Position numbers and translations under genes: made by a program
Part shown: positions 14,365 to 62,500 of the stretch, piece after piece
How positions within the stretch are numbered: position 1 is the first letter of the stretch
Layout: each line of letters opens with the position of its first letter
Assembly (NCBI GenBank): GCA_025024175.1
Contig: QCXZ01000064.1
Span: 10,912,001-10,976,000, forward strand
From: Rhyzopertha dominica
Lineage: Eukaryota; Arthropoda; Insecta; Coleoptera; Bostrichidae
Direction: 5' to 3'
DNA: 64,000 bases
Notes under the pieces: model-generated
What the model was told of the DNA's origin: nothing
Database searches by the model: none
What the model saw: only the letters and a program-made list of their open reading frames with translations

Positions 14365-14939
14365 AGTGCAGTGACTTTATCATGCTAGTAAATTTTTTCA
14401 TAAAACGCAAGGTAGTATTCTATTTTACTAGACTGTATATCGGATTAGTCATACAAAGTAAATAACACTTATTGTTGGGTAACCATTTTATGAAAAAAAT
14501 TATTACCAAAAATTGATCTTGATGTGCAAAATACTAATAGGCAACGGTACGACAACGGTGCAAGTATGAAGGGACTGCAACAAATAAATTTAATTATTAA
14601 TAATGCCGCAATAATTTCTAGCGAATCTATAGTTTTTGATTAGTTCAGGAATTGTACAATTTTTTTCTGCTTCACCCTTCATACGAATTTGTTTAAAGAA
14701 ATTATTACAAATTTGACGTAGAAGTTATTGAGTGAAATTTGTAGGTCAAGTAGTAATGATGCTCTTAGGCCATTGCAACAAATTTATGGCAGTACAATCA
14801 TTGTCAGTGATTAGAAGGCTGGAGGTCTACATACAAGAGGTACAGCACAGAACTGTTTGAAAAACTTAAGGTTTTTAAGATTTTTGAATGGCATTTGGTG
14901 AAAAACTGATTAGTGGAGTAAAATCAGTCACAAATAATA
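14365..14939. other. no recognisable gene
   Basis: Flank left of the large transposon; nothing identifiable. Confidence 0.35.
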
Positions 14940-14955
14940 ACTTTTTTTTTTCTTG

Positions 14956-15412
14956 GCGTAGAACCAAATGAAACCTACATGGTTGCGTTCATTATATAAT
15001 TTTCTACTAGAAATGATGATTGACGACATTTTTGGCCGATGCAGAACTTTTTTATTTTCGGAAAACATGAAAACTGCGGCAATATTGGAATCATTGCGTT
15101 CTAACAAATATCACGTCATATCTGGAGAACTATTTCAGATATCGCATTCATTTTTTTTTTTCAATGAAAGTACAAACATGAGCGCTTTTAACAGTGTTAA
15201 AATAGTTTATAGAACTGTAACACGTTTTGCAGAAAAAAAAAAGAATGTCGTTGTACACTGCACGGCTACTGAAATTTTAGACACGCGACAAACTTTTTTG
15301 TTTCTCAAAATTTATACTTATATGCAGCGAACGATATGTTGAGAAAGGTCTAAAAAAGTTTTTGGTGAAAAAATTATTGTCGTAGGTACCATGGTTTTCA
15401 CGTTATGAATTT
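14956..15412. repeat. left terminal inverted repeat of the Academ-like element
   Basis: Reverse-complementary to 20473-20926 over about 455 bases. It starts GCGTAGAACCAAATGAAACC and ends near the shared block around ACCATGG (15389-15395). Differences are scattered substitutions and poly-T length changes. Confidence 0.9.
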
Positions 15413-15573
15413 TTTCTTAACGAGTGTATCACCCGACAGTGAGCGCGCCGCGCCGTGTTGTTATTCCTGGTAACCGAGCTGGTGACAGATAACGCGTAAT
15501 AAGTATACTATATTTCACAAGAGATAGATACATTATTTGTGAAAACGAAATGAAAATAGAACTTGAAAATATT

Positions 15574-18500
15574 TTAATACATTTCTATGTCAGTATCAGG
15601 GTCTGCTTCTTCCTCTAACATAGTATTTTTGCAATTAGCACAATTACATTCGCCGCAGCATTTCAACCCTTGTTTCACACAGTTGCACCTGTTTGTAGTA
15701 CAATTTCCATCAGAACAGTACAGTGATAAGGACTGCCTTAGAGATTGCGGTATAGGATCTTGGTTTGCAAATACAGGTTCCCAATGATCAGAGTCGAATG
15801 TCCATCCGTATTTATCAGGGTTTTCAAATTTTACTTTTCCAATGTGGCTGGAATACCATATTTTCAACTGGTATATGCACCTAAAACAGGAAACGCATAT
15901 AAAATGTTATCTCTACTTACCAAAGAATATACATGTAAGTATTTTCTTTGCATTTACTGAATACGAACCTCTGCAAATGCAATTTAAACGCATCATCCGT
16001 GGGTGGAATTTCAGAGGCTGAGCGATTGGTATTTTTCGTAAAGAAAAGACGTAATTCGTTCAAAGTTCGAATATCCTTTTGTTTATTTTTGTACAAAAGC
16101 AGAACGTAGTGCACGGCAATTTCTTGTGCTCGATCGAAAGGTAGATTTGGCAGTTCTTGCAAGTCCTTCAGATTAGCAGCATTTTTCATCAATATGTCAA
16201 AGGCAGTTTTTTTGCCTATCTTGTAAAATGCGCTGGTGGTGTCGCATCCAGTTAGTGAATGTATTGCCAATAAATTTTGTGAAACTGTGGTTCCAATTTT
16301 ATCAACAATATCACGTATCGCGACAATGCGTTGATTATGACTGTGTCCTAATTGCATAAAAACCTTGCATTTGTTTAATACGGACCCACTAGTATAGTAG
16401 TGAATGAGCAAAATTAGAACATCAGTATCTACAGATTTTACTAATATATTTTTACTGTAACTCGATTCATGTAAAGCGTGCAAAACAATTCTCGTGTCCG
16501 CCTCGTCCTGATTGCTGCTTAAAGAATCCAAGACGTACAAGTTTTCATTCTTCCTTACAAGACATGTTTGCTCAGGATCCTCAAAGCCTCCAGCTATTAT
16601 CAAATGTTCATTTTCGTTTAACAGTTCTGAAGCGTGTTTCGTAATATACTTTGTGAGGAATATTAAGAGTGACCACTTATTTTCGGACGACTTCAGAAAT
16701 TCTCTAAATTTTGGAACCTTTCTTGAACCCAAAATAGCGAAGTTCGAGTTAAAATCTCCTCGTCTCATTCTCTCAATAAACTTTAAACCTCTTCCCTTGT
16801 AATTATCGAAAACCACGGTCAGTCTTTTACTATAGTTCTTTCGAGCAGTATAAATAATATTATGTAAGAACATATTTCCGACATCATCAAACGTAGTAAT
16901 TTTTTTTTCGTTCAGCTCATGAACAGAAACCATGCCATCGATTATTATAGAATCAAAATCAAGATTAGGCGCCACGGGATTTACGTAGGTCTCCAACTTT
17001 TGGATTAAGTCCGACTTTGTAGTTTTTCTCATTGAGCCGTCCTCACAAAATAATGAGGTGGGAACCACCGTCAGTTCATAGGAAATAATGTCTGTTAAGT
17101 CCAGTTCATGCAAACGTGCAGCACACACAATTCTCCGAAACATCAATTCAGACCCAATGAACGTTTTTTTTTGCGCTTTCCTCGTAACTTTATCTTCTTT
17201 GAATCCCACAACTTTTTCTCTTTTTTGCGATTTCCAAAAGTTACCAACATCAAAGTTCAAAGATAATTTTTCAGTTTTGTTTTTTATAGCTTCAGCAAAT
17301 TTATTTATACCATTTCGAATCTCTGCCTTTGCAATTTTGCCTGTGCAAATATTGATTAACTCCTTTGGAACAGAAGATATTTCAAACGGATTACACCAAC
17401 TTTTTTCAATTATATCAACAATTTTCTTTACGTCAGCTTCGTTTCTGTCTCTTGACGACAACCCCTCCTTTTTGAGTACCTCTGCCAATCCCCTTGTATC
17501 TTCTAGAATAAAGTATGCAATTTTTTGCATTAGAATGAATCCCCTAGTTAAGTAAAAGGAGACGCACTTACCTAAAAATTGTTGTGAATAATCTCCCAAG
17601 ATATGACGTGTTGCTATCCATCGAAGGAGTGCACCCGGTTTTTGTGTGAACCCTACAACACCAGATGTGCTTTTGCAATCTCGATTTATGGATTGCTCCA
17701 ATGCCATGTCCGAAGCGACACAATTGAATTTTTTGTCACCTGTTTTCTTCACAACAAAATTCCCATTTATCAAAAATCTATGCATGTATGGCACCGCACT
17801 CTTCAGCCTTTCCATGTCGCTTAAATACACGGGAACCCATTTTGAATAGAGGTTTCTTCCAGCAGACCTCAGATACGGTAATGTATCATGAACTGCACTT
17901 AAATGGGCTTCAAAGTCACCATCTCTTTCTGCGCGTAACATTCGCCACAGTAAATCCACTCCTTCAAGAAACGAGTGCCAGTATTTAAAAGTTTCAGATA
18001 ATGCCATTCCTTCGTTGGAAAAATTGATCATTTTGTTTTCAACAGTTTCCAATTGATGAAGAAGATCGTCGAAGTGTTCATTGTTAAACTGAAAACCACA
18101 AATCTCATCTGTCACAAGTTCAATAGTATTTAAGAACTCTTGTGGTATTAAACTCTCGTCATATGTATCCTCACACCACTCACCCAAGGCTTTAAAATAT
18201 AATCTGGACAAAGCATCACAAGCAAGAGTAAGTCCTCGAATGGATCTTGCATATTGCTTCCCATTCAACATTAATTTGCAAGTATTTTCGGCGTACACGT
18301 CTGATTCTACAAGCATAGCTGTTAGTCCCCCGTCTCCAAAAATATATCCAAGGCTAGCAATGAAAGCCAAAACGAGGTGCATTCCACCCAACTGCATAGT
18401 TACTTTCCCAGTTAATTCTGGCGGATTGCTCCACNAAATTTCCTGCGCTTTACTATAAATTGCCAAATCTGCAGTAATAACAATATGGTCCTGATTCACA

Positions 18501-20300
18501 GCAGTTGCTAATTCAACAAGTCGAACCATGGATGTGAAAATTGTGTCGTACTCAGTTGGAGGAGCGTTTAAGAACGGCATGTACGCTATATTTGAGATAC
18601 TAACATTATTTGGAGATATTGTATTGCAGTAATCGGTCCAACCGATAAAAGGCCTTCCCTTCTTTAAAAATCGCAACAGTTTCCACAACAGATTAATTTT
18701 TTTTGATGCAGCATCATTTTTACGGCTAATGCGTACTTCAATTCCTAAATTAGACGGTTCTGGTCGTGACTGTGGCTTTTTATAACGTAAGATTTTTTGG
18801 AAGGGAAAGTCGAGTTCCTCAACTTTCAACGAATATGTTCCAATTTTAGGAATATCACTTTGACGACTTGAAGTGCATGATTGCTGCTGAAAAACTACAG
18901 TGGCCATAGAATGCGTAGTGCATTTACCATCAATGGTGTCTTCGTTAAGGTCAAAGTTATCGATACTGGCATGAATATAATTTTGTTTCGATTCATCCAC
19001 AGTTTCAATACCATATGGTATGTACACACTATCCTTTACAATTTTTTCTTGCGCTAGTGCTGTCATAAGGTGTCTTATATCATTGTATGAACAAGTGAAT
19101 CCCATCGACGATAATATATCAAGGATTTTCCTACTGCGTATAGCGTGGTACACGTAAAGTCCTAGGCCAATATGAAAAGTGTTTGTCTTACACTTCGAAT
19201 TAAAAACTCCCATAAGTATGTTACAGATTATGGTAGCCTGGGGATCTGCACCTTTCTCAGCATTTGTAAATAAAGATTTATTAACTATCCATGACATAAA
19301 TGTAAGTAAAGTTTCGGGAACTTCATTTTTAAAATTACGACCATTAATCTCTGAAGGTGGTGGAAAATTGTTATTGCGAAGTGGAAAATCGGACATTTCT
19401 TTTCTTAATATTGCTGCGGCTTTGTGCAGAATATGGATATCAGATTCGGCAACCCTGGTAGAATTTCCGCTAAAGTCTAAATCAATGTTACTGCAAGAAC
19501 TAGACGATTGATTATTTGTTTCGACCTCGCTTGTGTCAGTTTCTGTTGCAACATTTGCATTTTCTTGTCTTATTTTGTTCGAGACAGCTTTTATATTTCT
19601 TGATGATATGTAATGGCTGTAGCAGGTCTTATGATATTTAGCGTCATAAGCAAATAAATCCTCGTAAGTAGATAATTTAGATATCATGTCGATGTCAGTT
19701 CTTCGTTTTGCCGCTTCTATAACTTTGGCATATGTGGATCTTCCCGTCCCTACGGACATATCTTATATACATACCTTATAATATATACATACCCTATACT
19801 TATTTATGAGGTATGTAGGTATTGAATATGCATAAAGACCAACAATTTGAAGTACTGACTCAATCAAAACCCAATACTATGCTATCCGAATTAGGTATCT
19901 AGCAAAGAAGTAATTTACAGTCAAACTTACCTGTTTGGATAGAAATCAAGTGCTTTCCTTTCTTTCTTCCATCTTTATTACAAATGAAACACATCCTGCG
20001 AATGTCAAAGCCACTATTTGCTCGCCTAGTAGGTCTGGAGGGAGCCGCTTCTCTGGCATTAGGTTTAGTAGATGTTAAAATGTTTTGTAGGCTTGTATAT
20101 GACTTTCTGCATGCTTCATGGTACTTTATATTCAATTTTCCTGATATTATATCATCTTTATTTGACAGAATATTTCTGGCACAAATGTCTTGCCGCTTTT
20201 CTGCAGCAGATATTATTGTCAGTAGTCCTTGATGTCGCGGATTCCGGACAACCCCCTTTTCATTAGCAGTAACTGCTTTCTTGCAAATAATGCACTCCAT
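15574..20300 (-). CDS. transposon protein: Zn modules, DDE-like core, XPG/FEN1-like nuclease, CXC domain (1501 aa, three exons)
   Basis: Exons 20300-19931, 19749-15921 and 15880-15574 join in phase through GT-AG introns. The start is the first ATG of the open frame. Residues 3-64 and 104-166 each hold CxxC...HxxxC, likely two zinc modules. Residues about 380-830 look like an RNase H-fold transposase core: an IDNFD motif (D387/D390), TADLAIY (D551) and DMALEQ (E808) are candidate DDE residues. Residues about 1055-1320 match the XPG/FEN1 plan: IIIDGMVSV (D1061), VVFDN (D1105), EADTR (E1206, D1208), SVDTDVL (D1231, D1233) and LTGCDTTSA (D1293) before a helix-hairpin-like stretch. Exon 3 carries nine cysteines at 1455-1483 in a Tesmin/TSO1-like CXC pattern. 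The role is presumably excision and integration of the element in the nucleus. One N (near 18435) leaves one residue unknown. The ATG lies only 173 bases from the right inverted repeat, so the promoter is probably inside it. Confidence 0.8.
15881..15920 (-). other. intron 2 of the Academ-like gene (40 bp)
   Basis: Donor G|GTAAGTAGA and acceptor CTGTTTTAG|G on the minus strand. Without splicing the 1280-codon middle exon ends in a stop two codons into the intron; with splicing the CXC exon follows in frame, sharing a Trp codon. Forty bases is very short but within the range of small insect introns. Confidence 0.7.
19750..19930 (-). other. intron 1 of the Academ-like gene (181 bp)
   Basis: Donor ACAG|GTAAGTTT at 19930 and acceptor CCGTAG|GGACG at 19750 on the minus strand. 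Joining them keeps one frame and places the second CxxC just before its matching HxxxC, which supports the splice. Confidence 0.7.
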
Positions 20301-20472
20301 ATTTACAATAACACCTGATTCCAACAAAATTGGCAACTAACACGATTTGCGACATGCGATGTGTGTCGCGCGAAATCTTTGTGGGATCATGGGAGTAGTT
20401 ACTGCGCAGGAACAATAATAAACGCCCTCTGTTGTGTCTGGACAGCGACGTGACCCTACCGTTCAGAAATAT

Positions 20473-20926
20473 AAATTCATAAAATGAAAACCATGGTAGT
20501 TACAACAATAAACTTTTCGCCAAAAACTTTTTTAGACCTTTCTCAACATATCGTTCGCTGCATATAAGTATAAATTTTGAGAAACAAAAAAGTTTGTCGC
20601 GTGTCTAAAATTTCAGTAGCCGTGCAGTGTACAACGACATTCTTTTTTTTTCTGCAAAACGTGTTACAGTTCTATAAACTATTTTAACACTGTTAAAAGC
20701 GCTCATGTTTGTACTTTCATTGAAAAAAAAATGAATGCGATATCTGAAATAGTTCTCCAGATATGACGTGATATTTGTTTGAACGCAATGATTCCGATAT
20801 TGCCGCAGTTTTCACGTTTTCCGAAAATAAAAAAGTTCCGCATCGGCAAAAAATGTCGTAAATCACCATTTCTAGTAGAAAATTATATTATGAAAACAAT
20901 CACGTAGGTTTCATTTGGTTCTACGC
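20473..20926. repeat. right terminal inverted repeat of the Academ-like element
   Basis: Inverted partner of 14956-15412; its outer end reads GGTTTCATTTGGTTCTACGC. It probably contains the promoter of the transposon gene. Confidence 0.9.
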
Positions 20927-21078
20927 GACTTTTTTTTTCTGAGGAAATGAGCGCGTTTTATGCCTCGTTTTACTCCTCTAGATGTAAACAAATTGCTGCG
21001 GAATTTTAAAACTGATTTGCTGAATGTATTAAAAAGTTGCACAATTAAAGCACTTTTTGGATCAGAAAAAAATGATCC

Positions 21079-21842: not shown

Positions 21843-22220
21843 TTATAATTTCGGCAATATCAAAGGCGTACTGGACGTGGGAATTTCTATTTGTGTATTT
21901 GCCAAATGTTTTTTCTGATGCTGAGCTTTTTTAATTTCCAAAAGTTCTAAAAGGTTCAGTTTTTTACCTTTCCTTTCGCAATGCAAAATTTTGACGTCGT
22001 TTTCATCTAAGTGATGATTATTTCTTATGCAATAGTCAGCAAAATATGTTGTGCTTTTGTTTGAATTTATATTCGAAACGTGTTCTTTAATTCTGTTTTT
22101 AATAGCTCTACCTGATTGTCCTATGTATATCATGTCACATTGCATGCATTTTATTTGGTAAATGCCGTTTTTGTTCAATTTATTGGATTTTGGCTTATTG
22201 TTAACTAGAAGACCTCCCAA
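21843..22220 (-). CDS. GIY-YIG endonuclease module of the Penelope-like element
   Basis: A 125-codon frame shows the family signature in order: NGIYQIKC, then the C-x2-C pair CMQC, then MIYIGQSGRAIKNRIKEH with the catalytic Arg, and a later acidic LLELLEIKK that fits the metal-binding Glu. In full elements this domain is the C-terminal part of one RT protein; here it is separated from the RT by stops, so it is a fragment of a dead gene. A copy at 12124-12432 is truncated. Confidence 0.8.
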   Translation of the reverse strand: MGGLLVNNKPKSNKLNKNGIYQIKCMQCDMIYIGQSGRAIKNRIKEHVSNINSNKSTTYFADYCIRNNHHLDENDVKILHCERKGKKLNLLELLEIKKAQHQKKHLANTQIEIPTSSTPLILPKL

Positions 22221-23396
22221 ATTGCACTTATTAACCTCTATTGCTTTTATTCGGAGTCTATTGAGCCTATTTTTAACAAAACACTAACTCCTTTGACATA
22301 ATTTACTGCGGCAAAAATATGTTCTTTTTCATTGATGTTAGCATTGTACAGCATTCTTTGTATTCTAATTTTATTTTGTTTTTTAAGTATTTGGTCCACA
22401 ATGTTTGTGTCGTATCCATTGTTAAAGGCTATTTGTTTAATTGTCGTCAATTCTTTTTCGAAACTTTTTTTTCTAAGTGGTATATTTATTAGTCTGTTTA
22501 TTAAACAATAAAACACGGAATGCTTAATCTGTAACGATTGATTTCAAGAAGCCGGGATTGTAACATCTGACTGTGTTGGTTTTTTATAAATTTCAAAGTC
22601 TATTTTACTATTTTTTACCGACATTGATAAGTCCAGAAAATGAAGAACTCCATCCTTTTCTTTTTCTAGGGTAAATTGAATCTTTTTATTTATTGTATTT
22701 AAGAATTTTAAGAATACATCCAACTGCCTGTCAGTTACCGTCCAAATACAAAAAATATCATCAACATATCTAGTCCAGAATAATACATTTTTAATAATTT
22801 CATTTTTCTTTGCAAAAAGCTTTTTTTCGAAATTTGACATGAAAATTTCGGCCAAAACTGGAGATAAAGGTGAACCCATTGGCAGTCCATCGTCTTGTTT
22901 GTAGAATGTGTCATTGAACGTAAAATAACTTTGATCTATGCAAATTGGCAGCTCTCTATTTTATTTTTGAGGATTGTTAGAAGTTCATTTAGAATAGAAT
23001 AATAGAAGTGAAAAGATTAGACACATCGAAGGAGACAAGAATAGCGTTATTTGGTAATGATAATTCTTTTACCTTGTTCGCGAAACCTACGGAATTCTTC
23101 ACGCTGTATTTGGACTAGCATTCAATTGATTGTGTCAAAATGCTGTTGGCGAATTTGCATAATTTATACGAAGGAGCATTAATGTAGGAAACAACCGGTC
23201 TCAAAGGTATTCCATTTTTGTGAATTTTTGGGAGGCCATATAGAATTGGAGCTCGGGGGTTCATTATTCTTAATTTGTACTTTTCTTCGTTTGATAGCAA
23301 GTGTTCTGAAGATTTTAAAATGGACGTGACGTCTTTTTGGAACTGGCCTGTGGGATCTGAATTAAGTTTAGAAAAGTTAACTTAATGATTTGTACG

Positions 23397-44670: not shown

Positions 44671-45266
44671 ATAATGCTCCCTTCTTATAAGGGAACTAGA
44701 TTCTTTCCTTTAACGTAATCTAAATAGCAGTGGTGAAATAACAGAAAAGCATTTAAAGACAAACCACTTTATTACATTAAAGTCAAGCAACTAAAAAATA
44801 ACACGCGTCGAAAACGTTCGAACGAAAATCAGTTTATTCCTGCCCGTAAAAGAAAATAATTAGTTTGTTCACTTATCTGTTCGTTGCAAGCTCGCTCACA
44901 CGAAGAACTTTCCAAGGTTGCTGTATAACGCAGCTGGCTGGGATGACGCAATAGCGGCAGGTGTATCGCCTCCGCTCGTCACAAGTCCGCGTGCACGGCG
45001 ATCTCTTAACTCCAGGAAGAAATCTCCACCAGGAGATTTATCCTTGCTGATAATGACGACGGTGGAAGCTTTCCAACTTTGGGTGAAGCCAACACCACAA
45101 AACACAAGCTTGTCTTCCTTTCTAGCCTTTCAGGCAGCTAGAAACACCACCAGCGAGCACTACGGCGTACCGACCACCATTCTTCGCCGCACACCGCCTA
45201 CTCAACTCAAACTAACATGGTTGCCAGACGTACTCTTTTGTCCGGCTTACGCACTGTTTGATTACA
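44671..45266 (-). repeat. 3' LTR of the gypsy-type element
   Basis: Begins TGTAATC on the minus strand at 45266 and ends GCATTAT at 44671. The plus- and minus-strand open frames inside it have no coding meaning. Confidence 0.9.
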
Positions 45267-45279
45267 CTACCCCCCTAGG
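45267..45279 (-). other. polypurine tract
   Basis: CCTAGGGGGGTAG directly before the 3' LTR on the minus strand, the expected primer site for plus-strand DNA synthesis. Confidence 0.7.
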
Positions 45280-45337
45280 AAATGGCGCAAATATATACAA
45301 GAGATTTGAGTCATTTTCTACCGCTAACCACCTAAAA

Positions 45338-48300
45338 CTATAGCTGGTCCATTGATTTTATCGGCTGGTGGTATGGTCGCAAGTTTACCACGTTTTGTTT
45401 ATTCAATTTTCGACCATCCGTGTCGCAAATCAAGTAAGCATTCGGTCCAACCTTACTATGCACATAGTAGGGACCGTTGAACAAAAGGAAAAACTTCTTT
45501 ACTTCGGATTGCTTGGCTGAGGACAAGTTATGATTCCGAACCAATACTGGATCACCCTCCTTGAAAATAGTCGGTTTTAAAGTTTTATCCCTAAAAGCGC
45601 GTCTGCGTTCGGCTTTACTTAATAAAGATTTCCTAGCCAAAACCCATACATCTTCCCGGTTTACTTCCGCGATCTGGTTTTCGGGGTAGCAAATTAACTT
45701 GGCAACCCTGTTAGGTTCAACTTTCCCGAAATGCAAATAATTAGGTGCAAAACCTGTGCTGTCGTGAACGGAATTGTTTATACAAAATTCTACCTCTGGC
45801 AGCATGGTAGCCCATTTTTTATGCTGTTGGTGGCACCACGTCCGTAATAATCGCCCAATTTCGCGGTTAACGCGTTCCGTCGCATTACCCTGGGGGAAAT
45901 ACACCGACGTATTTTTTACCTTGATTCCCTCTTTACTTAACCCGTCTCGCCAAACCTTCGACACGAACTGAGACCCATTGTCGCTCAGTATTGCCTGAGG
46001 CTTGCCCAGCTCTTGAACATATTTGGTCAGTATTTTATTTAACACCACTCGAGCAGAAGCCTTCTTTATTGCATATAGCCTAACCAATTTTGTAAATAGA
46101 TCTACAACAACAAACAGGTAAGTAGCAGATGACAACGATCTAGGTAACGGCCCCATCAGATCGACCGACACCAATTCTCCCGGTTTATTTGGTATTACTG
46201 CGTAAGTTTCGCCCCTACATACATTAAACACTTTTGCCTTCTGACAGACATCGCAAGAACTTACAATTCTCCTTATATCCCGCCGCATTTTAGGCCAAAA
46301 GAAGGTTTGCTTCATTCGATCATAGATCTTCCGAGGACCATAATGACCCATGTCCACGTGTTGCTGCAACACCAAATCTACCACTTGATTCCTTGGTACA
46401 CACAACTTATATCCCGGGTTTGCGTCCGTACCCCACCTAAAAAGTACTGACTCATGAAGTGCATACCACTGCACGATCTTGTCAGAGCATTCCGATCCCA
46501 TCCTGTGTTCCAACAACTTAATTATCTTTTCGGTCCATACATCACTCCTTTGATCACCCCCCAACCTTTTAAAATTCTCCTTAACTTGTTTATATTCCTC
46601 ACTTAAACGTATAGCAGATAAACAAACAGAACCACCTTCTTCTGGTTTCTGAAGTGTCTCCTTAGAACAGCTTCTAGACAAAAAATCTGCTAACAGATTA
46701 TCCTTGCCCTTACAATGCTCAATGGTCACATCAAATTCTTGAATGGCCATTACCCATCGATATAATCGACCACTCTTAATGTTGGTAGTCATTATAAATG
46801 ATAGGGCCTTATGATCAGTAACCACTACCACTTCTCTACCCAACAAAATAGTTCTCCACAGCTGCAGAGCGTACACAACTGCAAGCCCCTCCTTCTCCGT
46901 GACACTGTACGACAGCTCCGCTCCCCGCAATACTCTACTACAAAAAGCTATAAATCTCCTTTCCCCAGTCTGATCATCCCTCTGGAACAAGCAACCTCCT
47001 ATGGCATAATCCGATGCATCGGTTTGAACATAGAATCTACGTGCCCAGTTTGGATGCGAAGCTACCTCAGCACCCAAATATGCTTCCTTTATTGCATCAA
47101 ATGCTGCTTGCTCTTCCCCTGTCCACTTCCACTTACATCCCTTTCTTAACAATCTCACCAGTGGTTGTGAAAGTCCCGCAAGGTCCTTGCAGAATCTCCT
47201 ATCATAATTCACGGCTCCTAGGAATCCCCTTAACTCCTTAATACTTTTTGGTCTTTCATATTTAACCAGCGCCTCGATTCTTTTGGGATCTAATTTCACC
47301 CCTTCGGCAGTCAAGACATGCCCTACAAACGGAACTTCTGTCCTTAAAAACAATGATTTCCGCAACTTAATCGTCATGCCTGCTTCGCGCAATCTTTGTA
47401 GTAATTCTTCTAGATGTTGCATGTGCTCGTCAAACTCCTTTGAGAACACTAAGAGATCATCTACGTAGGCAGTAGTAAATGAAGCTACCCTAGGCCCCAA
47501 TACTTGTGTTAACCCTCTTATAAAGCTGGCGACTGATGTCGAGTAACCAAAGGGAAGCTTGCAGAATTGATCCACCTTATTCCCATACAAAAACCCTGTA
47601 TATTTACGGTGATCCCTTCTAATAGGTATCTGCCAGTAAGCACTGGTTAAGTCGAGAGTACTCAACACCTGGCCTCGTTGAAATGTCATAAACAATTCAT
47701 TTGGGTTGGGTGGTCTTACATGATCCTTCGCCATTCTTCTATTAAGAAATCTTGCATCAACACAAATACGAACTGATCCATCTTTCTTTTTCACAGTTAC
47801 GAGAGGCGAAATGTACTCAGTTCTTGCCTCCTCGATTATCTTCCAATCTAACATTTCCTGTATCTGTCTCTGTACTTCTTCGCGATGCACTAGTGGTATC
47901 GGGTACGGCTTAATGAAAAACGGCGATTCATCAGTCATCACTATTTCATGTTCGTATCCCTGCATTTCTCCTGGACATTCCGAGAATATGTCCTTAAACT
48001 CTAACAACAATTTACGTAATTGTTCCTTCATCCCATTGTCTCCTTCTATTTTCTGTACTGCCCTATCAAAATCTTCCTCCTTGTACTGATGCTTCATGAA
48101 TCCTTCAACAAAATTTATAGTGATATTATGTTTCTCATTCACACCACTGAGCAATTTAATTTCACTTATTTCACCAGCAAAACTACACTGCATCACCATC
48201 CGTTGAAAATCTATTTTCACGTCATATTTGTGCATAAAATCACACCCAATAATCACATCCCTGGTTAGTTTAGGCACCACCACACAATTCACTTCCACCA

Positions 48301-49177
48301 TCCTATGACACAATTTAACAGGTATCATAGCTTGTTCCACAATTCTTTGTTTGTCACTGCCTATAGCTCCGCCTACTACTATACCTACCACTGGTAATCT
48401 TGGCAGCACCATTCCATTCTGTTCCAGCTGTCTTAAAAATTTCTCAGATACAGCGGAAACCTGTGCTCCTGAGTCTACCAAAACTTCAACGATCCTCTGC
48501 CCTATTTCTGCTTTTATGGTTGGCGACCATAACACTGTTTCTTTTAACCCTTCTTCTTCTACGTCTCTCAATACTTCCTCCGTTTCTGTGAAAGTCGTTA
48601 TTATACTAATCTCCCTCCTTTCCTGTTGTTGCTGTCCATTTGATTCATTTAATCTTTCTATATTTCTTACAGGCTCACGTCCTGTGGGTCTATACTTTCC
48701 TCTTCTTTCTTGTTGTTGACTACTCCTATCCTCTGTAGCGCTGAATGTCTCATCGATTCTTTTTAGATATGCCTCTATTTCTTCTAAGGTCTTGTATCCT
48801 CCTGTTACAATTCCTCGTTGGATCTCTGGCGGAAAATGTTTCGTCAAGAACTCCATCAATCTACCCTCTTCTAATCCCTCGGACAAATAGGTGGCTTGGC
48901 TGGCCATTTTTAACAGATAGTCTGCCCTACTTCCCACTGTATACTTTCCATAGTTTATTTCGCAGAACAAATCACGCTCCTGTTCGACCCCCCAATAACG
49001 ATCTGTGAACCTCCTGCTAAATACCTCAAAATTCGTAAAGGAATCTTGTTTTGCCGTTACCCAATCGACAGCCGAACCCCTTAAGCACTCTACTACCAAA
49101 CCTACTTTCGCATTTTCAGGCACCCCGGCCTCTAAAAACAATTTTTCTAATTTTTTTAAAAAGAACTTGGGATGCAT
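45338..49177 (-). CDS. pol: Gag-Pol polyprotein, main frame (1279 codons)
   Basis: Residues 1-200 are the capsid-like end of Gag with no zinc knuckle. The protease motif LVDSGAQ is at 234-239 (Asp235). RT follows with LDLTSAYWQI and YVDD at 571-574, then RNase H with Asp720 (QTDASD). Integrase has an HHCC zinc site (H940, H945, C975, C978) and D1006, D1066, E1101 as the D,D-35-E triad. A basic C terminus ends at 1279. All catalytic residues are present. Gag and Pol are in one frame, without the usual shift between them. The start codon at 49177 is internal: the same frame is open upstream to 49213 and the true Gag start lies in the next entry, one base out of frame. Confidence 0.9.
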   Translation of the reverse strand: MHPKFFLKKLEKLFLEAGVPENAKVGLVVECLRGSAVDWVTAKQDSFTNFEVFSRRFTDRYWGVEQERDLFCEINYGKYTVGSRADYLLKMASQATYLSEGLEEGRLMEFLTKHFPPEIQRGIVTGGYKTLEEIEAYLKRIDETFSATEDRSSQQQERRGKYRPTGREPVRNIERLNESNGQQQQERREISIITTFTETEEVLRDVEEEGLKETVLWSPTIKAEIGQRIVEVLVDSGAQVSAVSEKFLRQLEQNGMVLPRLPVVGIVVGGAIGSDKQRIVEQAMIPVKLCHRMVEVNCVVVPKLTRDVIIGCDFMHKYDVKIDFQRMVMQCSFAGEISEIKLLSGVNEKHNITINFVEGFMKHQYKEEDFDRAVQKIEGDNGMKEQLRKLLLEFKDIFSECPGEMQGYEHEIVMTDESPFFIKPYPIPLVHREEVQRQIQEMLDWKIIEEARTEYISPLVTVKKKDGSVRICVDARFLNRRMAKDHVRPPNPNELFMTFQRGQVLSTLDLTSAYWQIPIRRDHRKYTGFLYGNKVDQFCKLPFGYSTSVASFIRGLTQVLGPRVASFTTAYVDDLLVFSKEFDEHMQHLEELLQRLREAGMTIKLRKSLFLRTEVPFVGHVLTAEGVKLDPKRIEALVKYERPKSIKELRGFLGAVNYDRRFCKDLAGLSQPLVRLLRKGCKWKWTGEEQAAFDAIKEAYLGAEVASHPNWARRFYVQTDASDYAIGGCLFQRDDQTGERRFIAFCSRVLRGAELSYSVTEKEGLAVVYALQLWRTILLGREVVVVTDHKALSFIMTTNIKSGRLYRWVMAIQEFDVTIEHCKGKDNLLADFLSRSCSKETLQKPEEGGSVCLSAIRLSEEYKQVKENFKRLGGDQRSDVWTEKIIKLLEHRMGSECSDKIVQWYALHESVLFRWGTDANPGYKLCVPRNQVVDLVLQQHVDMGHYGPRKIYDRMKQTFFWPKMRRDIRRIVSSCDVCQKAKVFNVCRGETYAVIPNKPGELVSVDLMGPLPRSLSSATYLFVVVDLFTKLVRLYAIKKASARVVLNKILTKYVQELGKPQAILSDNGSQFVSKVWRDGLSKEGIKVKNTSVYFPQGNATERVNREIGRLLRTWCHQQHKKWATMLPEVEFCINNSVHDSTGFAPNYLHFGKVEPNRVAKLICYPENQIAEVNREDVWVLARKSLLSKAERRRAFRDKTLKPTIFKEGDPVLVRNHNLSSAKQSEVKKFFLLFNGPYYVHSKVGPNAYLICDTDGRKLNKQNVVNLRPYHQPIKSMDQL

Positions 49178-49190
49178 ATTCCCATTCGGT

Positions 49191-49487
49191 CTAAAAAATA
49201 AATTTGTACCCCCCCAATTCTTTCCAAAGCATAATATATGATTTCGAACGCTCTAACGCCCCTTGACTCGACGTCACACCTGTCCTCATCTCATCTACCT
49301 GTTCACTACCAGTGACATTAGACTGATTCGACGGTACCGAATTGGCTAACTGCGCCATACACACCTGCATCTGTGCCATACTATCGGCTAACCGACACAA
49401 AACCGATTCTAAGTTAGATGGTTCGCGGTTTACACTATCATTGCTTTCTGCCATCTTGGGTTCTTGTCTTTTCCTACCTCTAGGCAT
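49191..49487 (-). pseudogene. gag: Gag N terminus, separated by a one-base shift
   Basis: A frame starting at the ATG at 49487 runs through a basic then Asn/Ser-rich N terminus and stops at 49191, just after a run of G on the minus strand (C at 49211-49217). Past that run, the neighbouring frame continues into the main polyprotein. The simplest reading is a single-base change in the homopolymer, either a real mutation or a sequencing error, that splits one Gag-Pol frame of about 1390 codons. Confidence 0.7.
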
Positions 49488-49564
49488 TAACTTCTTCTTT
49501 ACAAAACAATTCAACAATCAAACAATGCAAATATCTATACACTCAATCTGATAATTGAACAATG

Positions 49565-49582
49565 TCCAGCTATTGGGCGCCA
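49565..49582 (-). other. primer-binding site
   Basis: TGGCGCCCAATAGCTGGA on the minus strand a few bases inside the 5' LTR. The TGGCGCC start is standard for tRNA-primed retroelements; I cannot name the tRNA with confidence. Confidence 0.7.
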
Positions 49583-49587
49583 AATAT

Positions 49588-50183
49588 ATAATGCTCCCTT
49601 CTTATAAGGGAACTAGATTCTTTCCTTTAACGTAATCTGAATAGCAGTGGTGAAATAACAGAAAAGCATTTAAAGACAAACCACTTTATTACATTAAAGT
49701 CAAGCAACTAAAAAATAACACGCGTCGAAAACGTTCGAACGAAAATCAGTTTATTCCTGCCCGTAAAAGAAAATAATTAGTTTGTTCACTTATCTGTTCG
49801 TTGCAAGCTCGCTCACACGAAGAACTTTCCAAGGTTGCTGTATAACGCAGCTGGCTGGGATGACGCAATAGCGGCAGGTGTATCGCCTCCGCTCGTCACA
49901 AGTCCGCGTGCACGGCGATCTCTTAACTCCAGGAAGAAATCTCCACCAGGAGATTTATCCTTGCTGATAATGACGACGGTGGAAGCTTTCCAACTTTGGG
50001 TGAAGCCAACACCACAAAACACAAGCTTGTCTTCCTTTCTAGCCTTTCAGGCAGCTAGAAATACCACCAGCGAGCACTACGGCGTACCGACCACCATTCT
50101 TCGCCGCACACCGCCTACTCAACTCAAACTAACATGGTTGCCAGACGTACTCTTTTGTCCGGCTTACGCACTGTTTGATTACA
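49588..50183 (-). repeat. 5' LTR of the gypsy-type element
   Basis: Same length as and near-identical to 44671-45266; carries the promoter for the element transcript. Confidence 0.9.
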
Positions 50184-50188
50184 AACTT

Positions 50189-51179
50189 CAACTTATTGGA
50201 CGCAATCTTAACCCGCAATACTGCCTTCCACGGAGAACGCAAATACAGATATGACAGATAATATAGATACTGTCAACCGACAAAATATTAACTATACTCT
50301 GGTAGCCCTAAATATTCATGTTCTCTTCTAGAATATTTGGAAATAACTTTAGCACCACCCTGTTTAATATTATATAAATATTTACTTAAATGAAATGGCT
50401 ACCTATCAATTTTGACAAGATACAAGCATAAACTTTTTAACATCTTATTAGTGTCCTTATTTGTAATATCTGTTTCTAAATCTGTACTATGAACGTTGTT
50501 CGATTATTTCTATAACATTTGTCAGTACTCATCAGACAAAATAATATTACCAATTTTGTGTAGGTACTAGCTTATTAGATTATTTATTAATTACAATAAT
50601 TAATTCTCCTAATTAATTAACAATCGATGGTGACAAGGATACAAAGATTTGAATTGATATTGAATTAACCTACATCTAAATTTTTCTTCATTGTCTCAAT
50701 AACAAAAAATCATTTGTTATTTTAACAGAGGACGCCGGATTTCCACATATTTACAGATATCAACTTTAGGGCAACGCTGGATCACACACGTGTAGGCTGA
50801 AGAAGAGTAAGCTTCTGCAATTACATTCGCTTTACAGAAACTTCACCTTGTCCTCCCTGCTCGTTGCCCATAACAACACTACAGTGACAAATTAAAAATA
50901 TAAATGGACTGTTAGCTGTCTAAAATACATAAATGCTTCTAAATATCTTTCTGTTCTAGAAGTACAGTAATTATAATATATATTATAATTATAAAATATA
51001 AAAAAGCAGTACTAATCTAGTCAACGACCTATTTAATTTGTTTAAGAGACTATCTAAGGACCACTGCAATATTTTGCTTTACCTTTAAAGACAAAATAAA
51101 ATTCACAGGAACAGCAGGTACTAATGATTAATATTAGCTTTATATTATTATCAAATGATTAAGTTAATGGATAACCAGT
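50189..51179. other. no recognised gene
   Basis: AT-rich flank with no coding or repeat signal. Confidence 0.35.
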
Positions 51180-61275: not shown

Positions 61276-62500
61276 TTAGAATTCATCAGATTCTAAGTTA
61301 TCTTTCGTTTTAAGGGAATACACATGCACAAGTTTTTTTTGACGTTTCTGGACCAAGTCTGTTTCTTATTCTGTTGTGCACGTAAGACCAATTACTAAAA
61401 ACTCTTTCTAATTGGGCAGATGATGCCGGAATGGACAGAAGCTTTTTTGCCAAAGGTGCTAAATTTGGGGCTTTCTTTAAAGCATAGTTCCAGTACAATA
61501 GCGGTTTAAGTCCTATTTTGTTATTCAATAATTCAAAAATGCCAGAGTTCTCATTAAAATTATGCAACTCTTCTAGACCAGATGCATTTAAATTTGTCAG
61601 TAAGAATTCATTAACACGATCGAGTCTAGTATTTGCTACTAACACCTCATCCTTTAGTGCATATTGTCTGCGTTTTTCTAGACACTCTTCAGCATCTGTA
61701 AAACCATTTGGTAACTGCAAACTCATCCACGCTTCACCAGCATCAGCAATACTGGATGTTGCTTTCTGACATATGTTGATTAAAGTACAAATTGGATCAA
61801 GCAATTTTACGTGTTCATCAACATCTTTTTCAAATACTTTATCAAAAACTAAATTTTTGACGCTGCTTGGAAAATTTGTATTTTCACTTTCTGCTATAAC
61901 TTTTTTAATGAAAGGCAAATTTTTCAGAAAACATAGAAATGAATCTCGATTAGAACACCAACGTGTTTCTGATGGTAATTGAATTCTAGTTCCACCAATT
62001 TTGAGAATTCTGTGTTCCATATTTGGTGAATTAAAGTGTTTAAGGACACCAGTTACTTTTGTAGCAAATTCTTTTGACAGTACGTCTTTTGCTAGAAGTT
62101 GTGCAATATGTGAGTTACAAGTTAAATGCAAAATATCTGTAAGACGTCCCATTTTTATCATGTTAGCAGCATTATCGCTAACGACGCAGTAAATGTTAGT
62201 GCTGTACATATCCATAGCCTTTTTTTATAATTCAATTATCTCCAATAATTTCTCACCAGTTTCTTTCTCTACTGAAAGGTCCCAGTTATCTAAAAATACA
62301 GCTTTTCCGGATGCACTGAATTGGCGTCAAATTTTGTGTCATTAGTTATTTTTTCATACACTTCGTTTAAAAATGTATGAGCCAAACTTTGTCGGCATGG
62401 CAATTTATAGGCAGGCCGGAGAAAATTAATAATTTTTTTTAAATGTTTTGATCCTACAACACTGAATGGTATATTGCATCCAATCTCCGCACTGAGGGCT
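61276..62500 (-). pseudogene. hAT transposase, lightly decayed
   Basis: Minus-strand protein in hAT order. The DUF659-like start (IPFSVVGSKHLKKI and FLRPAYKLPCRQSLAH) lies near 62350-62480. The middle block at 62215-61310 has CVVSDNAANM (a catalytic Asp region), LTCNSHIAQLLAKD and RWCSNRDSF. The C-terminal dimerisation motif LAKKLLSIPASSAQLERVFS is near 61400-61460. Three lesions are visible: a frameshift near 62310, an in-frame stop near 62227 and an extra A in an A-run near 61335. Past the last lesion the correct frame ends at 61276. It inserts by cut and paste when intact. Upstream sequence is cut by the LINE that begins near 62480-62520. Confidence 0.85.

Follow-up and report, generated by a model that had tools for sequence, protein, structure and literature searches.

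Why would a single transposase carry the active-site residues of two different nucleases? The question is raised by a transposon in a 64,000-nucleotide window from Rhyzopertha dominica (GenBank assembly GCA_025024175.1, contig QCXZ01000064.1, forward-strand positions 10,912,001 to 10,976,000); the coordinates below are those of the window. The predicted protein of its three-exon gene is 1,485 residues long, and the complete set of FEN1-type active-site residues was found in the same polypeptide as a DDE transposase core. The element is, on balance, a full-length and probably autonomous AcademX transposon that would use the DDE core and the nuclease in the manner proposed below. The positions of the individual features are presented in Table 1.

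Results

The acidic motifs EADTR, DTD, and GCD, from which an earlier sequence-only reading of the window had recognized an XPG/FEN1 nuclease, are located at residues 1206–1210, 1231–1233, and 1291–1293, respectively, and their acidic positions are nearly invariant among relatives. The XPG fold itself is backed by structure models. The seven acidic residues listed in Table 1, which we take to be the FEN1/XPG active site, are all present on the predicted FEN1 fold in 117 of the 118 relatives that cover this region. The DDE residues and the nuclease residues are preserved together in 87 of the 89 relatives that cover both, which suggests equal constraint on the nuclease active site and the DDE triad. 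None of the titles listed in literature searches dealt with what the XPG domain does in Academ elements.

The DDE core that the same reading had proposed is also backed by structure models, which predict a P-element-like fold. Two acidic residues, D804 and E808, are each preserved in 116 of 116 aligned rows. We prefer E808 as the third catalytic residue, based on its position in a helix and on its approximate offset to E531 of the P-element transposase. The core was not detected by Foldseek by itself, and a single-sequence search of the PDB returned no match. The protein encoded by exon 2 has no Pfam matches at E ≤ 10, and none in NCBIfam. Two distant relatives (P0036 and P0041) match Pfam DUF6589 (PF20231) above the cut-off, over the stretch that contains H581 and E808. 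This suggests that DUF6589 represents a portion of a DDE transposase core of the P-element type; a literature search for DUF6589 turned up no relevant paper.

The two ends of the protein are rich in cysteine. The two N-terminal CxxC...HxxC modules are 31% identical to each other. The C-terminal cysteine cluster of the Tesmin/TSO1 kind, noted previously from the sequence, is indeed present: the Pfam TCR match is under the cut-off (E = 0.034), and the family profile matches LIN54 with E = 0.0015. Weak matches under the cut-off were all that Pfam and NCBIfam returned for the end exons. There are nine cysteines between residues 1439 and 1467, seven of which are kept in 26 to 27 of 29 rows, while C1444 is found in 9 and C1459 in 2 of the 29. 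The cluster is absent from relatives P0050 and P0055 and is divergent in P0045. A C-terminal zinc cluster of eight cysteines is one of the criteria for Academ and AcademX proteins.

A length of 1,501 residues had been proposed for this protein, which requires a second in-frame splice donor 48 nucleotides downstream of the one used here; the length was corrected to 1,485. The downstream donor reads GATAAG in a decayed relative at another place in the genome (L067), where the upstream donor is preserved, and none of the 28 full-length relatives has the 16-residue insert at this junction. The frame, previously described as intact, is open throughout with the exception of one gap, a base read as N at position 18435. 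The resulting codon for residue 562, TNG, could encode Leu, Ser, Trp, or a stop. In the 28 full-length relatives this column holds L or I in 14, Q in 9, and R, K, or V in 5, and it holds L or I in all nine of the most similar ones (P0004 to P0023).

Table 1. Features of the transposon in the window
Feature	Position	Strand	Basis or remarks
Whole transposon	14911..20980	gene on minus strand	6,070 bp; copy comparison and L026 empty sites
Left target-site duplication GAT	14908..14910	.	copy comparison
Right target-site duplication GAT	20981..20983	.	copy comparison
Left terminal inverted repeat TAGTGGAGTAAAA	14911..14923	.	13 bp; similarity between copies ends here
Right terminal inverted repeat TTTTACTCCTCTA, reverse complement TAGAGGAGTAAAA	20968..20980	.	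similarity between copies ends here
Left arm, long subterminal inverted repeat	14956..15422	.	arm alignment
Right arm, long subterminal inverted repeat	20460..20926	.	arm alignment
Exon 1, from ATG	19931..20300	-	gene model
Exon 2, DDE core and XPG nuclease	15969..19749	-	gene model
Exon 3, cysteine cluster and stop	15574..15880	-	gene model
First CxxC...HxxC zinc-like module, residues 3-64	20109..20294	-	aligns with second module
Second CxxC...HxxC zinc-like module, residues 104-166	19622..19991	-	spans intron 1; cysteine/histidine counts
DDE (RNase H-fold) transposase core, residues 375-865	17525..18997	-	D387, D551, E808; H581 invariant
Base N, codon of residue 562 (TNG)	18435..18435	-	sequence read
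FEN1/EXO1/XPG-type nuclease domain, residues 1034-1383	15971..17020	-	D1061, D1105, E1206, D1208, D1231, D1233, D1293
C-terminal CXC (Tesmin/TSO1-like) cysteine cluster, residues 1439-1467	15631..15717	-	Pfam TCR, LIN54 profile match

The extent of the element was determined by comparing its copies. The source assembly (479 Mb, 138 contigs) was searched with the left arm as the query, and 40 matches were scored of 54 candidates; the protein search scored 36 of 108 candidates, and all copy numbers are lower bounds. The window copy and 19 other regions were compared. Both exact ends are found in 16 of these 20 copies, and an identical 3-bp duplication lies immediately outside the ends in all 16, with shifted positions agreeing in only 0 or 1 of the 16 as a control. 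The duplication is 3 bp rather than 4, with the fourth base agreeing in 2 of the 16 copies. The four copies excluded from this count for want of an exact end are L011, L012, L014, and L019; L011 and L012 have an identical right flank, part of which is N in L012, and look like a single duplicated locus. The left-end pattern has 20 genomic occurrences, of which 18 are exact and two have two or three mismatches; a reversed control pattern has none. One left end with two mismatches, at C42:10326509, was left out of the fetched copies.

One of the compared copies, L026, is inserted within a repeat, and matches spanning its junction were found at at least 40 places (40 scored of 82 candidates). In the four empty sites that were aligned, a single AAA is present and there are no transposon bases. 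The joined site differs from the empty sites by an additional gap of 5–7 bases, approximately 12 bases to the left of the junction. Because of the ends of the copies, the 3-bp duplications, and the empty sites of L026, we place the ends of the window element at 14911 and 20980, with GAT as the duplicated target.

The terminal inverted repeats match at 12 of 13 bp. The minus-strand gene of three exons does lie between long inverted repeats, as first described, and 443 of 470 aligned columns are identical between the arms. These repeats had been given as 455 bp and as the termini of the element. They are present, at approximately 467 bp each, but they are not the termini, since the similarity between copies extends outward beyond them to the ends given above. 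The sequence ACT(n)CT, previously taken for the target duplication, is common to the copies and is therefore internal to the element.

Among the scored candidates of the protein search, the window copy is the only full-length coding copy. A second copy, L027, is a deletion derivative of 2,456 bp with the same ends, part of the transposase gene, and a TTT duplication; it is 97.8% identical to the window copy over 2,124 bp. The remaining 18 copies are non-autonomous and carry the end sequences of the element; in 14 of the 18, both ends are exact. They are approximately 3.1–3.7 kb long and consist of a left-end segment of approximately 880 bp that takes in part of exon 3, a right-end segment of approximately 550 bp (shorter in L026), and a middle of approximately 2 kb that has no DNA similarity to the window element. 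Their median pairwise identity is 98.3% (gaps ignored). L010 and L013 (3,615 and 3,613 bp) have no base differences and are located on separate contigs, where their duplications differ (GAT and ATA). The high median identity and the identical pair at separate sites show that these copies moved recently. Their ends are only approximately 85–90% identical to those of the window copy.

The filler in the middle of these copies (L009–L026; for example, L010:1240-3425) contains frames of a protein with relatives elsewhere in the genome, with open frames of up to 722 residues. It looks like the capture of a gene fragment by an Academ derivative; the filler protein has only weak matches in Pfam, under the cut-off. 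The genome also contains further Academ-type genes: the decayed L067, with pieces 59–94% identical, and the distant L069 and L070 (25–35%), which have long open frames. A search of GTDB genome contigs gave 14 pattern matches, none of which was confirmed as a relative.

Other elements in the window were recognized by eye. Adjoining the right end of the transposon, on the minus strand at 21843-22960, are open frames of Penelope-type appearance with reverse transcriptase-like and GIY-YIG-like pieces. A Ty3/Gypsy-like element with long terminal repeats is found at 44864-50254; its open frame of 1,304 residues (45338-49252, minus strand) is flanked by two stretches with near-identical open frames. 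A hAT-like transposase open frame of 304 residues is located at 61310-62224 on the minus strand.

Discussion

The roles of the two nucleases can be arranged in a single reaction sequence. In the proposed mechanism, the element would be bound at its terminal and subterminal repeats by the CxxC...HxxC modules of the N-terminus together with the cysteine cluster of the C-terminus. Next, the triad D387/D551/E808 would nick the 3' ends and join them to the target with a 3-bp stagger. In the joined intermediate, the 5' ends of the element would still be attached to the old flanking DNA, as 5' flaps beside short gaps. Such 5' flaps and branched DNA are the typical substrate of FEN1-family enzymes. 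The built-in FEN1-type nuclease would then take off the 5' strand, which would either free the element from the donor or trim its ends for ligation. Derivatives that share these ends but are non-autonomous could be mobilized in trans.

The most economical reading is that the terminal modules bind, the DDE core cuts and joins the 3' ends, and the FEN1-type nuclease removes the 5' strand, since 5' flaps are what strand transfer leaves behind. We tentatively suggest, at somewhat less than even confidence, that AcademX is a one-protein, two-nuclease machine in which 3'-end joining falls to a P-element-like DDE core, and cutting of the 5' strand on a branched intermediate to a built-in FEN1-type domain. 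By analogy, this would resemble the division of labor between TnsB and TnsA in Tn7, arrived at separately in eukaryotes by means of an unrelated repair nuclease, and the exchange of the nuclease for a helicase in AcademH would alter the length of the duplication.

A less probable arrangement is that the XPG-like nuclease acts first, cutting the 5', nontransferred strand at the ends, so that the DDE core does only the 3' cut and the joining. In Tn7, the TnsA/TnsB pair divides the work on the 5' and 3' strands in this way. Both nucleases seem to be needed, since both residue sets are preserved in 87 of the 89 covering relatives, and branched structures could form close to the ends by extrusion of the long subterminal inverted repeats. 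However, FEN1-family enzymes favor branched or gapped DNA over plain duplex ends, and in the P and hAT systems, whose transposases are related to the core, DDE alone cuts both strands. It is unlikely that the nuclease opens hairpins or trims the donor-site ends during repair after a hAT-like excision and is dispensable for insertion; in the hAT and RAG systems, hairpins are opened by host enzymes. Finally, we consider it very improbable that the inverted repeats were originally those of another element that received the gene by insertion or capture. In 18 of the 19 other copies, filler with no DNA similarity to the middle of the window element lies between the same ends, but these copies share the long end segments, part of exon 3 included, and the deletion derivative L027, with the same ends and part of the transposase gene, contradicts a foreign origin of the repeats.

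How Academ elements use two nucleases can be approached directly with the family described here, which provides a coding copy that is nearly intact, precisely defined ends, and natural non-autonomous substrates.

Comparison with Known Systems

The Academ-like identity first assigned from the sequence is backed by the domain content, the 3-bp duplications, and the length. To our knowledge, the P-element transposase has no XPG domain. P elements make 8-bp target duplications, in comparison to 3 bp in 16 of 16 copies of the window family, and the P-element transposase is 9% identical to the window core over the aligned part. In FEN1 and EXO1 the alignment starts almost at the N-terminus (residue 2 or 3), whereas in the window transposase of 1,485 residues it starts at residue 1034.

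The Academ superfamily is credited to Kapitonov and Jurka 2010 (cited in PMC4455052), and Academ transposases are of the DDE type according to PMC9587614 and PMC10294476. AcademX elements have a nuclease and target duplications of 3 or 4 bp, whereas AcademH elements have a helicase instead of the nuclease and duplications of 9–10 bp (PMC10045372, which cites Kojima 2020 for the AcademX lineage). A transposase with an added nuclease has thus already been described and is not supported as new. The window element belongs to the same superfamily as AcademH but has a nuclease and a 3-bp duplication, and no helicase was found among the Pfam matches at E ≤ 10 for its three exon pieces. Like AcademX, it combines a DDE transposase and an XPG-type nuclease in one protein and has terminal inverted repeats and a 3-bp duplication, and at 6,070 bp it is near the mean of 5,565 bp for bivalve Academ elements (PMC10294476). 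Its short 13-bp ends are separate from its subterminal inverted repeats of approximately 467 bp. The placement in AcademX is supported by these described features rather than by sequence comparison with the Academ proteins in Repbase. The element adds one more AcademX to those already described, and no defining difference from AcademX was found.
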